IMG/VR virus record: IMGVR_UViG_3300008267_001991 | Coordinates: 1 to 20,668 of that record | Strand: one strand, 5' to 3' | From: a virus | Length of the DNA stretch: 20,668 nucleotides | Shown here: positions 4,568 through 13,762 of the stretch, in pieces | Layout of the letters: each line of letters opens with the position of its first letter | How positions within the stretch are numbered: position 1 is the first letter of the stretch | Made by a program: the position numbers and the translations under genes | Notes under the pieces: model-generated | The model's database searches: none | Seen by the model: only the letters and a program-made list of their open reading frames with translations | Told to the model about the DNA's origin: nothing

Positions 4568-4594
4568 AAAACTTGATGGTGCAAGTTAAATTGG

Positions 4595-4770
4595 TACTCT
4601 CACAAGGTTGCAATCCTTGATTTGATAGCCTCTACATATTACTATGCTTCATATGCTACTATCTTGGTATAAAATCCACACGCTCAGCAATACTGATTGT
4701 GTTTACCTGCAATTGGATGAGAGTAATAACACATTGCACGCACCTATCTCAAGCGTGTTACTCTTGAGCC
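4595..4770. ncRNA. Structured RNA element A (multibranched)
   Basis: No protein gene fits this stretch. The closing stem is TACTCTCA (4595-4602) with TGAGAGTA (4718-4725), 8 bp perfect. Inside lie three hairpins: CAAGG/CCTTG with loop TTGCAAT (4603-4619); GATAG...CTATC (4624-4663) with an inner CATAT/ATATG; and GGTA...TACC (4666-4707) with inner ACAC/GTGT and TCAG/CTGA. Together these form a four-way junction. Downstream, CTCAAG/CTTGAG (4748-4768) forms another hairpin. Element B at 5398 shares the first 25 or so bases, the last 20 or so, and the closing stem with a compensated pair. The strand is undetermined because no G-U pair decides it; flanking genes and the candidate promoter at 5886 favour the minus strand. 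Function unknown; no known RNA family recognised. Confidence 0.6.
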
Positions 4771-4811
4771 TTATAAGGGAAAGTTTCTAACAACTTACAA
4801 AGTTTTCTTTA

Positions 4812-4830
4812 ACCAGATATACTATCTGGT
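4812..4830 (-). other. Hairpin at the 3' end of the 4822-4992 gene
   Basis: ACCAGATA/TATCTGGT, 8 bp with a 3-nt loop, spanning the stop codon. The tail is only weakly U-rich, so it may be an RNA-protecting structure rather than a terminator. Confidence 0.4.
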
Positions 4831-4992
4831 CATCGACTTTGGTATGTCTTTATTTGATTTATCTACATAAGCATAAGCCCAAGTGATTTCTTCTTTCTCT
4901 CCATCAAAATCAACAGTGACTGTGATTTTAATTGAGCGGTAGTTGTTAGCAATAAGCATATCTAATGCTTGTTGCTTAGTTAAATTTTCCAT
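4822..4992 (-). CDS. Small hypothetical protein (56 residues)
   Basis: A complete short reading frame from ATG at 4990-4992 to TAG at 4822-4824. The product begins MENLTKQQALDMLIANNYRS, a likely helix, and continues as alternating strands (IKITVTVDFDGEKEEITWAY, then AYVDKS), a plausible small alpha-beta fold. Support for expression is strong: leader-motif copy 3 ends exactly 9 nt before the ATG, as in two longer genes, and a hairpin overlaps the stop. It is isolated between two non-coding structured regions. No family recognised. Confidence 0.65.
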   Translation of the reverse strand: MENLTKQQALDMLIANNYRSIKITVTVDFDGEKEEITWAYAYVDKSNKDIPKSMTR

Positions 4993-5001
4993 TTGATTAT
5001 A

Positions 5002-5020
5002 TTTTTGAGATTATTAATTA
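5002..5020 (-). promoter_or_regulatory. Conserved leader motif (TTTTTGAGATTATTAATTA), copy 3
   Basis: On the minus strand TAATTAATAATCTCAAAAA, 9 nt before the ATG at 4992. It lies directly after the terminator at 5024-5074, which fits a promoter starting a new transcript. Confidence 0.65.
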
Positions 5021-5023
5021 CAT

Positions 5024-5074
5024 AAAAAAGATTGTGACTGGTTATTGGTATTCCTTGACACATTGGTCACAATC
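5024..5074 (-). terminator. Terminator at the end of the non-coding region (element C)
   Basis: Perfect 9-bp stem GATTGTGAC/GTCACAATC (5030-5038 with 5066-5074), followed on the minus strand by TTTTTTATG. The loop is 27 nt and contains GGTTATTGGTATTCCTTGA, which loosely resembles the conserved hairpin of elements A and B. A second hairpin, TGCACT/AGTGCA, lies at 5082-5100. Confidence 0.65.
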
Positions 5075-5355
5075 ATCCCTCTGCACTCAGTTGTAGTGCA
5101 TATTCCAATTATCTTCCTGTTAAGGATTAAGTAACTTGTAATATGCTAATAATTGAGCAACCCTTTGGTTCTCTTTTATATTTTCTACAACTGCCTGACC
5201 TTGGGAATCAGAAATGGTGCATTACTACCCTGATAAGAAATTAATCTTATCAGAGTTATTATTACAGCCGGTGAAGTTTTCTCATAATATCCATATAACC
5301 ACCACAGTTATATCCCAATTATAATACTAAACTTGTCTTTGAATCTGTTGGTTAA

Positions 5356-5393
5356 ACAGTTAAGGGAATAAAAGACACTGTATAAAATCCCTT
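5356..5393. other. Candidate H-type pseudoknot
   Basis: Interleaved stems: ACAGT (5356-5360) with ACTGT (5377-5381), and AAGGGA (5362-5367) with TCCCTT (5388-5393). It sits immediately next to the closing stem of element B. Confidence 0.4.
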
Positions 5394-5397
5394 TGCG

Positions 5398-5582
5398 TAC
5401 TCTTACAAGGTTGCAATCCTTGATACCCTCTCTGGTATTTAATATTCTTTATCTGATGTCCTTAGTTCTAACAAGGCATTACAGTTACTACTGCCAATAG
5501 CATTAATTGCTATCTACTTGATATAAGAATATCCTGCTTGGATAAGAGTAATATATCTCTGTACTCAGTTTACAACTGTGAG
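5398..5582. ncRNA. Structured RNA element B (homologue of element A)
   Basis: The closing stem is TACTCTTA (5398-5405) with TAAGAGTA (5543-5550), 8 bp perfect. Relative to element A one C-G pair is replaced by T-A, a compensatory change. Inside are: the invariant hairpin CAAGG-TTGCAAT-CCTTG (5406-5422); ATACC/GGTAT (5423-5438); and a long stem ATATTCTTTATC with GATATAAGAATAT (5442-5453 with 5520-5532, one bulge). The long stem encloses small hairpins CAGT/ACTG and ATAGCA/TGCTAT. The 3' boundary CCTGC-TTGGAT-AGAGTAAT matches element A. Downstream a CTCAGT/ACTG-GAG hairpin (5564-5582) corresponds in place to the CTCAAG/CTTGAG hairpin of A. Strand undetermined; minus favoured by context. Confidence 0.6.
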
Positions 5583-7319: not shown

Positions 7320-7511
7320 TTGCTTGCAGGAGAAAACTTTTTGAAGGATGAAAAAAGTTTTTGTAGGCAAGTAGCTGAAGACTTGGCCTAAAGAACAGGG
7401 GGGTAGGGGCCCCGCTGGACTTGGCCGGGGGTTCAGCGATAGGGGGTCCACACAATCTCTAATATAGACTATCCCTATATACCTTCAGTCAGGCATATTA
7501 CCATGGGGTAA

Positions 7512-7527
7512 GTTACCACTTGGTAAC
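7512..7527. promoter_or_regulatory. Operator-like dyad GTTACCA-CT-TGGTAAC
   Basis: Perfect 7-bp inverted repeat with a 2-nt centre, in the divergent intergenic region. Size and symmetry fit a dimeric repressor site; no protein is assigned to it. Confidence 0.4.
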
Positions 7528-7571
7528 ATGTGGGGGGGGTCTTTTACTAATCTGAAAATTTTATAAAAAAT

Positions 7572-7699: not shown

Positions 7700-7773
7700 G
7701 CTTTTTTAGCTCAGTTGGTTAGAGCACTAGACTGTTAATCTGGGGGTCCTAGGTTCGAGCCCTAGAAAAAGCG
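7700..7773 (+). tRNA. tRNA-Asn (anticodon GUU)
   Basis: A full cloverleaf can be folded. Acceptor GCTTTTT/AAAAAGC (7700-7706 with 7766-7772); U8-A9; D stem GCTC/GAGC; anticodon stem CTAGA/TCTGG with loop CTGTTAA (anticodon GTT at 7734-7736); variable loop 7744-7748; T stem CTAGG/CCTAG with loop TTCGAGC. The discriminator base is G at 7773, as expected for tRNA-Asn. CCA is not encoded. AAC/AAT codons are extremely common in the downstream Asn-rich adhesin genes, so this tRNA may support their translation (inference). Confidence 0.95.
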
Positions 7774-7931
7774 CAACTCCTCCCTGTAGATAGAATCTGC
7801 AGGTTCAGTGCCAGGAGGGCATACCATAAGAACTGCTCGCTTACTCTCTGGCCTTCTCTGCGCAGGAAAGTGAATGTGCACTAAGTCTGGTTGACGAACC
7901 CCACTTAGTCAGTCATATAACTGTTAGCAAC
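7774..7931 (+). ncRNA. Multi-hairpin segment after the tRNA, candidate non-coding RNA
   Basis: No protein frame. Stems seen: CCTCC/GGAGG (7779-7783 with 7814-7818) enclosing CTGTAGAT/ATCTGCAG with a 3-nt loop (7784-7802, one G-T pair); GCGCA/TGTGC (7860-7879, one G-T pair); and ACTAAGT/ACTTAGT (7880-7909). A strong terminator follows. It is probably transcribed with or processed from the tRNA transcript. No known RNA family recognised. Confidence 0.45.
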
Positions 7932-10078: not shown

Positions 10079-12781
10079 ATGAGTTTTACAGGACAAATTA
10101 ATTTTGGGTACCCAATAACTACCCAAAACATTATTACAGATGTACCAGATAATGCTGTGTTACCTTTATCAGTAGTTAATAGCTTACAAGGTAATATATT
10201 AGGTGTAACCTTTGAGACATTAAAATCTCAAATTTCTAGTATTCCTGTATGGGGTACTATTATCGGAAACATTAATGATCAGAATGACTTAATGAGCATA
10301 ATTAATGGCAAACAACCTTTATTATTTTCAGGTAGTAATATCAAAACTATTAATGGTAACTCTATATTAGGTGGAGGTAACTTAACAGTAGGTGTAACAG
10401 ATGGTGATAAAGGAGATGTAACTGTATCTGGTGGAGGTAATACTTGGACAGTTGACAATTTACCACAATCTAGAATAAACAACTTAACATCAGACTTATC
10501 TGGAAAACAAGCTACTCTTACATCAGGTTCTAACATTAAGACTATTAATGGTTCTAGTATATTAGGTTCAGGAGATTTAACAGTTGGTTTACCAAGTTTT
10601 ATTGAGTATAATACAGGTGAGAAAACTGTTTGGAATAATGGTAATGGAAACATTGATGACAATACCACATATGGTATGCAGGCTTTTAGAAGCAATACAA
10701 CTGGTTTTAGTAATACAGTATATGGCTATGCTGCAATGCAACAAAACACCACAGGAGCTGTAAATACTGCTATTGGTTCAAATGCCTTATATGCAAATAC
10801 ATCTGGTCAAAATAATATTGCAATTGGTGCTGGAGCAAGTTCTGCTTCACAAACTGTATCAAGAAATATTGCAATAGGTAATTCTACATTGCAGTTAAAT
10901 ACTTTAAGTACTGATTTAGTAGCTATTGGTTATTATGCTTTAAGAAGTTTTAATGCAGCAAGTGGTGCTAACACAGCTGTAGGTACTGATAGTATGAGAA
11001 ATACAACTACAGGTGTAAATAATACAGCAATAGGTTATCAAACAATGTATTATAATACAACTGGTAATGGTAATACGGTACTAGGTAATAAAACATTATT
11101 CAGTAATACAACAGGGGGTGGCAATGTAGCAATTGGTGAAGAAAGTCTATATACTAATACTACAGGTGTTAATAATATATCAGTTGGTGGACAAGCATTA
11201 TATAATAATACAACTGGAAGTAATCTTACGGCAATTGGTCGAAGTGCTTTAATTTCTAATACTACAGGTAATAATAATACTGCTATTGGTTATGTTGCAT
11301 TAAATACTAATACAACAGGTTATAATAATACAGCTATTGGTAGTAACTCTTTGTACAGTAATACAACAGGTTTGAATAATGCTTCTGTTGGGGTACAAGC
11401 ATTGAGTAGTAATACAACAGGATCTTTTAACAGTGCTTTTGGTTATAGAGCAGCATATTTAAATACAACAGGCGACTATAATAGTGCATTTGGTTTTTCT
11501 GCATTGCTATCTAACACTACAGGAGGTTATAATAGTGCAGTTGGTTATCAAGCATTAAAAAGTAATACTACAGGTTATAATAACACTGCGCTAGGTAATG
11601 ATGCATTATTTAATAATACAACAGGTTATTTTAATACAGCATTGGGAAATAGGGCATTATATACTAATACTACTGGTAGATTAAATACAGCAGTTAGTGA
11701 TGGAGCCTTACAAAATAATACATCAGGTGAAGAAAATGTAGCGGTTGGTAGAGGAGCCTTATCATCAAATACTACTGCTAATAGAAATACAGCAGTTGGT
11801 AATGCAGCTTTACAAAATAATACAACAGGAACACGTAATGTAGCTATTGGTACAATTTCTTTATTGAGTAATACAACGGGTAATGATAATATTGCAATAG
11901 GAGAAAGTGCTGTAGTAAATAATACTACAGGTTCATCTAAAATTGGTATTGGTAAATCAGCTTTATATAATAATACTACTGGTAGTAATATTGTAGCTCT
12001 GGGTCCTAGTGCATTAGCTAGTGATGTAAATGGAGCTTTAAAAACAAGTGTTAATGGTTTTAATAATATTGCTATAGGTTATTTATCATTAACTAATGGA
12101 ACTGATGCTTCTAATAATATTGCAATTGGTAGAAATAGTTTAAGATTTAATCTTACTGGTGGTTATAATATAGCTGTTGGTTTAAATGCATTATATAATT
12201 CTACATTAAGTAGTAGTGTAGGGGTAGGTGGTGATTCTGGATATAATAATACAACAGGTACTATTACTAGTGTTGGAACTTCATCTGCATATAATAATAC
12301 TACAGGTGTAAATATTGTTGCAATAGGACAAAGTGCCTTATATAATAATACAACCGCAAACAATGTGACAGCAGTTGGATATAATGCATTGTATAGCTCA
12401 ACTGGTGCAAGTAATGCTGGTTTTGGAGCATCCGCAGGTTCAGCTATAACAACAGGTACAGCTAATGCTGTAATAGGAACGGCTGCTGGTAATAATTTAT
12501 CTACTGGTTCAAATAATACAATGATTGGAACAAGTGCTGGTGCATCTGTTGCAACAGGAAGTAATAATACATTTATTGGAACAAACACACAAGGTTTAAC
12601 TGCAACAACAGGATCAATAGTAATTGGTTCTGGTGCTGGTTCTACTATAAATAATGAAATGGTTATTGGTTCAGGTTCATATCCAGCGGGTGCAATTGCT
12701 ACAGAAACTATTACACCTAACAGAACATGGACAGTTAAAATTAATGGAGTTAACTATAAAATACCTCTATTAGCAATTTAG
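10079..12781 (+). CDS. Giant repeat adhesin / tail fibre (17-residue beta-roll-like repeats)
   Basis: 900 residues. Residues 1-75 form an N-terminal domain (virion attachment, inferred). Residues 78-175 hold two copies of a fibre motif (GKQ-x-x-L-x-SGSNIKTINGxSILGxGxLTVG). From about residue 200 to 850 run roughly 34 repeats of 17 residues with consensus NTTGxxNTAIGxxALYx. They resemble the left-handed beta-roll repeats of trimeric adhesin heads (YadA-head-like) in the regular A-[IV]-G and N-[TN] positions, though those are usually shorter. The C-terminal 40 residues (ETITPNRTWTVKINGVNYKI) recur in the next gene. The product is probably a trimeric receptor-binding fibre on the tail. Exceptional Asn/Thr/Gly content; ORFs on the opposite strand are shadows of the repeats. 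Confidence 0.8.
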   Translation: MSFTGQINFGYPITTQNIITDVPDNAVLPLSVVNSLQGNILGVTFETLKSQISSIPVWGTIIGNINDQNDLMSIINGKQPLLFSGSNIKTINGNSILGGGNLTVGVTDGDKGDVTVSGGGNTWTVDNLPQSRINNLTSDLSGKQATLTSGSNIKTINGSSILGSGDLTVGLPSFIEYNTGEKTVWNNGNGNIDDNTTYGMQAFRSNTTGFSNTVYGYAAMQQNTTGAVNTAIGSNALYANTSGQNNIAIGAGASSASQTVSRNIAIGNSTLQLNTLSTDLVAIGYYALRSFNAASGANTAVGTDSMRNTTTGVNNTAIGYQTMYYNTTGNGNTVLGNKTLFSNTTGGGNVAIGEESLYTNTTGVNNISVGGQALYNNTTGSNLTAIGRSALISNTTGNNNTAIGYVALNTNTTGYNNTAIGSNSLYSNTTGLNNASVGVQALSSNTTGSFNSAFGYRAAYLNTTGDYNSAFGFSALLSNTTGGYNSAVGYQALKSNTTGYNNTALGNDALFNNTTGYFNTALGNRALYTNTTGRLNTAVSDGALQNNTSGEENVAVGRGALSSNTTANRNTAVGNAALQNNTTGTRNVAIGTISLLSNTTGNDNIAIGESAVVNNTTGSSKIGIGKSALYNNTTGSNIVALGPSALASDVNGALKTSVNGFNNIAIGYLSLTNGTDASNNIAIGRNSLRFNLTGGYNIAVGLNALYNSTLSSSVGVGGDSGYNNTTGTITSVGTSSAYNNTTGVNIVAIGQSALYNNTTANNVTAVGYNALYSSTGASNAGFGASAGSAITTGTANAVIGTAAGNNLSTGSNNTMIGTSAGASVATGSNNTFIGTNTQGLTATTGSIVIGSGAGSTINNEMVIGSGSYPAGAIATETITPNRTWTVKINGVNYKIPLLAI
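10691..12620 (+). repeat. Tandem 51-bp coding repeats
   Basis: About 34 in-frame units of 51 bp (17 codons), recognisable by recurring AATACTACAGG/AATACAACAGG. Units differ by many synonymous changes, so they have diverged at the DNA level while the protein pattern is kept. The ends of the array are more degenerate. Confidence 0.85.
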
Positions 12782-12802: not shown

Positions 12803-13762
12803 ATGGATATTTTAAATTTTATATCATGGGTTAAAGGAAGTAGAATAGTTACTTCCGTAGATGGAGCTCAAACTTTATTACCAGTAGGTCTTAAAGATCC
12901 TAAAAGGGATGATGGTTATTTAGCTGGAGCTATTTCTGTTTCAGATTTAACAAGTGCATTTACACCAACATTTACTAATAATAATGTACCGTATGGTGAG
13001 AATACATTATCTAATATAAATGTAGTACAAGGTAATGTTGCTATTGGTTATCAAGCAGCAAATGCATTACAAAACGGTAATAATTTTAATGTTGCTGTTG
13101 GATTTAATTCAATGGGATTTATGAACTATGGTTCTGAAAATGTTGCTGTTGGAAATTCAACATTACGAATTGGTAGTAATTCTAGCTTTAATACAGCTTT
13201 GGGTAATCAGGCAATGTATAATACCTATGGTTCTTATACTAATGTTGCTGTTGGTCTTGATTGTATGTTTAATAGTAGTGATTCTAATAGGAATGTTGCT
13301 ATTGGTAATTCAGCAGGAAGATTTATGAGTAGCGCATACGAAAATATATTTATTGGTAATAATACAGCATCACTTAACTGGATAAACGGGGATAGAAATA
13401 TTGCTATTGGTCATGAAACCTTAAATCGACTTACAACAGGTTCTAATAATATTGTATTGGGTGATAATTCATTAAGAGGTTGTACTGTTGGTTATAATAA
13501 TATTGCATTAGGTATTAATGCAGGTTCTAATGTAGTAACAGGTTACTCAAATATATTTATTGGAAATAACATCAATAGTGTAACTACTTATGTTACAAAC
13601 TCTGTTGCTATTGGTTCTAGTGCTATTGTTGATCAAGACAATCAATTATCAATTGGTTCATCAGCAATACCATTAGGAACTGTAACAACAGAAACTGTAT
13701 CATCAACAAGAACATGGACTGTTAAAATTAATGGTACAATTAGAAAAATTTTATTAGCTTAG
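12803..13762 (+). CDS. Shorter repeat adhesin sharing the C-terminal module
   Basis: 319 residues. The N-terminus MDILNFISWVKGSRIVTSVD differs from the large adhesin. It contains LLPVGLKDPKRDDGYLAGAI, a segment I associate with structural proteins of Bacteroidota phages. Residues about 70-270 carry degenerate repeats of 17-25 residues (NVAIGYQAAN, NVAVGFNSMG, NIALGINAG). The C-terminal 35 residues (TETVSSTRTWTVKINGTIRK) match the end of the large adhesin, so the two probably arose by duplication of a C-terminal trimerisation or chaperone module. It starts 21 nt downstream with the A-rich leader AAAATAAAATG. Probably a second tail fibre or a partner of the first. Confidence 0.75.
   Translation: MDILNFISWVKGSRIVTSVDGAQTLLPVGLKDPKRDDGYLAGAISVSDLTSAFTPTFTNNNVPYGENTLSNINVVQGNVAIGYQAANALQNGNNFNVAVGFNSMGFMNYGSENVAVGNSTLRIGSNSSFNTALGNQAMYNTYGSYTNVAVGLDCMFNSSDSNRNVAIGNSAGRFMSSAYENIFIGNNTASLNWINGDRNIAIGHETLNRLTTGSNNIVLGDNSLRGCTVGYNNIALGINAGSNVVTGYSNIFIGNNINSVTTYVTNSVAIGSSAIVDQDNQLSIGSSAIPLGTVTTETVSSTRTWTVKINGTIRKILLA

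Follow-up and report, generated by a model that had tools for sequence, protein, structure and literature searches.

A pseudoknotted RNA frame with exchangeable inserts in phages of aquatic bacteria

Two copies of the element in the window

The DNA analyzed here, referred to as the window, is the whole stretch of 20,668 nucleotides (nt) at positions 1 to 20,668 of IMG/VR virus record IMGVR_UViG_3300008267_001991; coordinates are window positions unless another locus is named. Two copies of a structured RNA element lie on its minus strand inside a leftward operon, at 4595-4725 (copy A) and 5398-5550 (copy B). A first-pass annotation, made from the sequence alone, had proposed two diverged copies of an RNA-like element at these sites, and its coordinates were borne out. 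Each copy is a complete frame that carries an insert; the frame comprises a closing stem of 8 bp (P1), a conserved joining strand and a hairpin (P3) that abuts P1. The RNA of copy A runs from 4725 to 4595 and begins with the 5′ strand of P1 (UACUCUCA, 4718-4725), which pairs with the 3′ strand (UGAGAGUA, 4595-4602). Between them lie the joining strand (UCCAAUUGCAGG, 4706-4717), whose UUGCA pairs with the P3 loop to form a pseudoknot, an 86-nt insert of type 2 (4620-4705) and the P3 hairpin CAAGG-AUUGCAA-CCUUG (4603-4619); a conserved unpaired C follows at 4594. This insert, present on 12 contigs, forms helices of its own, in which relatives show compensatory changes. Our covariance model R1 matched the copy A region on the minus strand at 4594-4631 and 4678-4726, as the model splits single long-insert copies into two reported matches. 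Copy B, running from 5550 to 5398 on the same strand, has the P1 strands UACUCUUA (5543-5550) and UAAGAGUA (5398-5405), a short-form joining strand (UCCAAGCAGG, 5533-5542) whose GCA pairs with UGC of the P3 loop, a multibranched 110-nt insert of type 20 (5423-5532) and a P3 hairpin identical to that of copy A (5406-5422). The type 20 insert recurs as an identical type in L132 and L136, with a relative in L197. In both copies, P1 and P3 belong to stems that covary across the family.

The two copies share a 20-base block (ACAAGGTTGCAATCCTTGAT) that is present exactly twice in the window, with zero matches in 100 dinucleotide shuffles when 3 mismatches were allowed. The closing stems (TACTCTCA/TGAGAGTA in copy A, TACTCTTA/TAAGAGTA in copy B) differ by a compensated change from a C-G to a T-A pair, as had been annotated. 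The 3′ block CCTGC(AA)TTGGAT is also shared; on the RNA strand it is the joining strand AUCCAA(UU)GCAGG, and its pseudoknot with the hairpin loop had been missed. The interiors are indeed unrelated and were assigned to different insert types, and the additional internal stems are present, although they represent exchangeable RNA domains and not degeneration. The first-pass annotation was thus right to call this a structured RNA of unknown class, as covarying homologues were found in viral contigs; it had left the strand open and had not recognized the exchange of interiors. Its statement that no protein is encoded also held: no open frame crosses the element, and 154 of 164 distinct contexts were free of any overlapping open reading frame (ORF) of at least 80 amino acids (aa). 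Neither a protein frame nor a transposon-like boundary accounts for the conserved ends.

Frame architecture, strand and insert exchange

When viral contigs were scanned for exact occurrences of the hairpin block, 34 were returned, almost all with the full architecture. Further scans enlarged the set: in three gapped ones, GGTTGCAAYCC and CCTGCTTGGAT were the only fixed parts, and in another the frame was fixed in its 5′ half only; chance pattern matches lacking the second half (e.g., L143 and L186) were excluded. A strict parser then identified 202 frame copies, 156 of them distinct, among the viral contigs scanned, usually with one or two copies per genome in records of 85-123 kb and with element lengths mostly of 70-170 nt. 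The frame RNA reads 5′-UACUCUCA-UCCAA(UU)GCAGG-[insert]-YAAGG-RUUGCAA-CCUUR-UGAGAGUA-C-3′. The eighth P1 pair, A-U, is replaced by G-C in L073 and L165, so P3 abuts P1 with zero linker.

The frame is a pseudoknotted structured RNA whose covariation exceeds that of controls. Across 35 distinct frames, 98.8% of P1 and P3 pair cells were standard and 7 of 12 pairs had changed on both sides, compared to 2.2 such pairs in shuffles and at most 3 in slid controls. When the pseudoknot was included, 34 frames chosen for diversity were 98.4% paired, with 10 of 18 pairs changed on both sides (3.3 in shuffles). The pseudoknot joins UUGCA of the joining strand to the complementary UGCAA of the P3 loop. Using copies found by a pattern blind to the P3 loop, a joining-strand C to U change coincided with a loop G to A change in 4 independent contexts, and no case ran counter to this (type-level cases: C with G, 48; U with A, 4; C with A, 0; U·G wobble, 2; Fisher p = 4.7e-5). 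Copies without the UU retain GCA:UGC pairing, and five-nucleotide UGCAA loops are restricted to the UU form. The base directly 3′ of P1 is unpaired yet conserved as a pyrimidine (C 79%, U 19%). In eight copies (L004, L010, L034, L058, L063, L067, L082 and L189), the 3′ strand is preceded by one or two additional hairpins that end in UUGGAUGAGAGUUUUU; this end is reminiscent of a terminator or switch and could pair with the entire 5′ ACUCUCAUCCAA.

One-sided changes in P1 and P3 give C·A mismatches when read on the plus strand and G·U wobbles when read on the minus strand; in the hairpin, those on the plus strand comprised 7 CA and 1 AC versus 0 GT or TG. On the upstream side, the closest ORF of at least 80 aa had the same orientation as the minus-strand RNA in 135 of 145 cases; on the downstream side, this held for 132 of 136. 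A plus-strand reading was therefore rejected on the polarity of the wobbles and the direction of the genes, which put the RNA on the window's minus strand within a leftward operon. Single-sequence folding of the two copies was moderately better than for shuffles on both strands (z-scores of -2.3 and -3.2 on the minus strand, -2.5 and -4.1 on the plus strand), so folding energy alone cannot set the strand.

The inserts, independently folding domains of 7-202 nt, formed 75 groups by blastn (41 groups in the first set). Within a group, inserts are conserved and covarying, with variation mostly at hairpin tips: the group of the copy A insert has 9 predicted pairs with compensatory changes, P1 pairs among them, and another large group also has 9, several of them within the insert. 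Between groups, inserts have been exchanged. L046 and L070 carry unrelated inserts behind 5′ flanks that are 99.2% identical over 250 nt (L059 belongs to the same set), and near-identical flanks with different inserts were likewise found for L008/L095/L003, L013/L018/L023, L106/L113/L056 and L075/L136; flank identity between phages with different inserts was 93-99%. On the other hand, L011, L068 and L073 differ in frame bases and flanks yet share an identical 48-nt insert, and one 55-nt insert is identical in L163, which has the UU frame, and L082, which has the short frame and an extra 3′ hairpin. The same flanks with different inserts, together with the same inserts in different frames and flanks, identify the insert as a unit replaced within the frame. 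We regard the structure, strand, modularity and insert exchange of the element as practically certain.

Some inserts also occur elsewhere. Three insert groups were found, whole or partial, under other closing stems (e.g., L200 and L026). The insert motif CUACUAACACAUCUAGCGGA was present on 28 contigs in the scan, in the frame on 2 and free-standing on 26, with many different closing stems, and an apparent diverged relative of it lies inside a second frame class (described below) in L016, L084 and L127. No stand-alone copy A insert was found, its 12 contigs being 11 known frame copies and L248, where it is also in the frame. The compact motif GUAUGG-hairpin-CCUACUAACACAUCUAGCGGAC in L026 and L223-L247 has a wide variety of closing stems; it often lies immediately before start codons, sometimes after tRNAs, and looks like a separate undescribed RNA class of riboswitch or ribozyme size. 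The inserts of L141 and L175 contain a tRNA-type T arm (GUGGUUCAAAUCCAC), which suggests captured tRNA pieces.

Neighboring RNA modules and carrier phages

The element is intergenic, co-directional with its neighbors and situated within a string of other RNA modules, which recur in its flanks as structured units in varying order. In the window, the second frame class lies at 5076-5222 on the minus strand and reads UGCAC..[CUGA-UUCCCAAGG-UCAG]..CAGUUGUA-(variable insert)-UACAACUG-A-GUGCA-GAGGGA; 71 distinct 5′ halves with differing inserts were found across loci. Its hairpin covaries around UUCCCAAGG (CUGA/UCAG, CUCAC/GUGAG, CUAC/GUAG), its closing stem is CAGUUGUA/UACAACUG, and UUCCC may form a pseudoknot with GAGGGA. 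A 56-nt module (ACCACAAGGTTTCAGGCATAACCTCTCATCCTGTAAAGCAGGGGTTGACTTGTGGT) recurs in the flanks of L004, L016, L056, L072, L084, L099, L101, L110 and others, and further stem-closed modules (e.g., CCTGAGCATGATATAAAACTGCTC and AAAACCATCCACC...GAGGTTGT) appear in shuffled order.

Known ribozymes are part of the same region. Hatchet ribozymes lie on the minus strand of the leftward operon, once per record, in L207 (1709-1846), L091 (1792-1928), L040 (2069-2206), L095 (4453-4619), L113 (7663-7825) and L018 (968-1104), directly 3′ of differing RNA modules; in L207, the Hatchet model begins at the first base after P1. A Pistol ribozyme lies on the plus strand of L094 (1122-1190), about 220 nt upstream of a frame element, and in L053 a tRNA is directly upstream of the element.

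The carriers infect aquatic bacteria, have genomes of 85-123 kb and are distant relatives of crAss-like phages. For the terminase, portal and DNA polymerase encoded in a related 113.5-kb record, the matching PHROG families were those of head and packaging and of polymerase; the terminase is nearest to crAss-like phages (about 25% identity), and the capsid protein is nearest to those of Leptolyngbya phage Lbo-JY46, csAssE-Sib and Cellulophaga phi17:2. The frame was absent from these three phages and from crAssphage cr130_1 (0 of 4), and no DNA similarity to named phages was found. In bacterial and archaeal genomes, the 3′ half of the frame gave zero matches and the 5′ half gave two, one by chance and one a genuine copy on a 4.5-kb contig of a metagenome-assembled genome (L249) that is probably a phage fragment; there is therefore no sign of integrated prophages. 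Elsewhere in the window, a 900-aa ORF of repeated TTGxxNxAIG-like motifs (10079-12781, plus strand) probably encodes a repeat-rich tail or adhesin protein, with a shorter, similar ORF at 12803-13762, and an unusual G-rich noncoding stretch (7380-7560) separates the leftward and rightward gene blocks just before a tRNA-Asn (7700-7774).

Possible functions and relation to known RNAs

The element appears to be an uncatalogued RNA class. No Rfam 15 family scored above its gathering threshold on the element, either in the window or at the relatives' loci, and a permissive Rfam search of the window region gave chance-level matches only, none of them on copy A or B. ARAGORN called only the tRNA-Asn in the window, and the Rfam tRNA model did not match the elements. 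No published description of such an RNA was found in a search that covered part of the literature and, among motif databases, Rfam, so a prior description is possible. The claim of newness is based on this lack of matches together with the design of a frame with an exchangeable insert.

Our preferred functional reading, held tentatively and with somewhat less than even confidence, is that of a processed, trans-acting phage RNA in which the frame serves as a stabilizing or recognition chassis and the insert as the effector or specificity part. The leftward transcript would be cut into separate small RNAs, with self-cleaving RNAs separating the units, as the start of the Hatchet model exactly at the element end in L207 leads us to infer. 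The frame could act like the tRNA-like domain of transfer-messenger RNA (tmRNA), as a stable clamp, pseudoknotted and with P3 stacked on P1, that either shields the RNA or serves as the binding site for a protein of the phage or host. Recombination might swap inserts under diversifying selection, e.g., in conflict with host defenses or competing phages. A fuller version, which we consider doubtful, is a modular RNA-effector system with a dedicated chassis for interchangeable effector domains; these domains would recombine between phages, be freed from transcripts containing ribozymes and tRNAs, and act in trans against varied host targets.

Several points weigh against this proposal and the family picture beneath it. 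Processing with release from the mRNA, trans action and diversifying selection are steps that we infer. Hatchet abuts the element at one locus only (L207), and its presence in 6 of 14 records, once each and within about 1.6 kb of the element, is a count from records partly picked because Hatchet had already been seen there. Parts of the frame were fixed by the search patterns, making its apparent invariance partly a product of the search, and many of the metagenomic contigs are closely related, so that counts are not wholly independent. A D-arm-like mini-stem formed by CC and GG of the joining strand is possible, and variation at these bases was looked for to test it; none was found among the copies, which leaves the D-arm-like reading without covariation support.

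The main rivals are a ribozyme and a cis-acting element. The frame could be an undescribed self-cleaving ribozyme that cuts the polycistronic transcript next to P1, with the joining strand and P3 loop as active site and the insert in a permissive position; other small ribozymes tolerate extra stems at such positions. The compact conserved core with its pseudoknot, the conserved unpaired pyrimidine directly 3′ of P1 and the presence of Hatchet and Pistol in the same region of related phages are consistent with this. However, drawing the pseudoknot leaves few conserved nucleotides unpaired, the element is not matched by any known ribozyme model, and a ribozyme alone does not account for the conservation and internal covariation within each insert type; we consider this explanation unlikely. 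Alternatively, the element may act in cis on the leftward mRNA, as an exonuclease barrier, stabilizer or control element with the insert as a separate aptamer or regulator. Its position between co-oriented genes and its closed pseudoknotted fold would suit this role, as would the terminator-like UUGGAUGAGAGUUUUU ends of some copies and the one insert motif that, when free-standing, is often a short distance upstream of a start codon. Yet the neighboring gene is very variable: the commonest neighboring ORF family occurs at 48 of about 140 loci and about 2 kb away, a given gene family can precede the element in one genome and follow it in another, and the next ORF of at least 80 aa is at a median distance above 400 nt. 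A cis-acting role is conceivable, if rather improbable.

Two further explanations are less likely. Conserved ends in inverted orientation and identical inserts at differing genomic sites recall a miniature mobile DNA element (MITE-like or an HUH/IS200-type hairpin) with variable cargo. This was rejected as highly improbable: the ends covary by pairing and lack a fixed terminal sequence, genomes usually carry only one or two copies, no target-site duplication is evident in the flanks, and the element is biased toward the transcribed strand, with G·U wobbles on one strand only. A tRNA decoy or degenerate tRNA directed against tRNA-targeting host nucleases is also very unlikely. The topology may be tRNA-like, in that P1 and the abutting P3 would mimic an acceptor/T-arm stack (the stacking itself being putative) and the covarying pseudoknot brings the joining strand to the P3 loop as a D loop meets a T loop; tRNAs occur in the same arrays, and a few inserts (L141 and L175) contain the T arm noted above. 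The P3 loop, RUUGCAA or UGCAA, nevertheless differs from the T-loop consensus UUCRANY and fits neither an anticodon arm nor a canonical T arm, P1 is followed by C-N-A and not by the NCCA of tRNA 3′ ends, no anticodon arm is conserved among inserts, and neither tRNA search matched the element.

A constant chassis with an exchangeable RNA payload is an unusual design that amounts to domain shuffling at the RNA level. If the modular effector system were real, it would do with RNA what polymorphic protein effectors do by swapping domains. Were the inserts effectors, the about 75 types would each become a candidate for an inhibitor or regulator made of RNA, and cells could be made to display RNA domains on the frame as a general scaffold. 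The same phages also carry Hatchet and Pistol, ribozymes whose natural roles are poorly understood.

Among known systems, Hatchet (RF02678) and Pistol (RF02679) are likewise small multi-stem RNAs from the same operon region of the same phages, but they differ from the element in sequence and fold, and their covariance models match separate copies nearby and not the element. GOLLD and ROOL are structured non-coding phage RNAs, often near tRNA genes, whose function is not known. They measure several hundred nt, in contrast to the smaller element with its small frame and interchangeable inserts. Both belong to the large, ornate phage-associated RNAs (PMC12286853). The hepatitis delta virus (HDV)-like theta ribozymes of gut phages are small RNAs located beside phage tRNAs, which they are thought to process (PMC10879173). 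The element has a different structure, gave no HDV-like match and is not systematically beside tRNAs. The head of tmRNA consists of a stem of the acceptor type, a D-like segment that lacks a stem and a hairpin of the T-arm type, and a large structured body takes the place of the anticodon arm. Compared to tmRNA, the loop contact of the element is a Watson-Crick pairing (UUGCA/UGCAA), there is no CCA end, reading frame or ARAGORN call (window), and the body is exchanged among the unrelated insert types; the plan of a closed head with a structured body inserted into it is nevertheless what the tRNA-like domain of tmRNA and the frame with its insert have in common.
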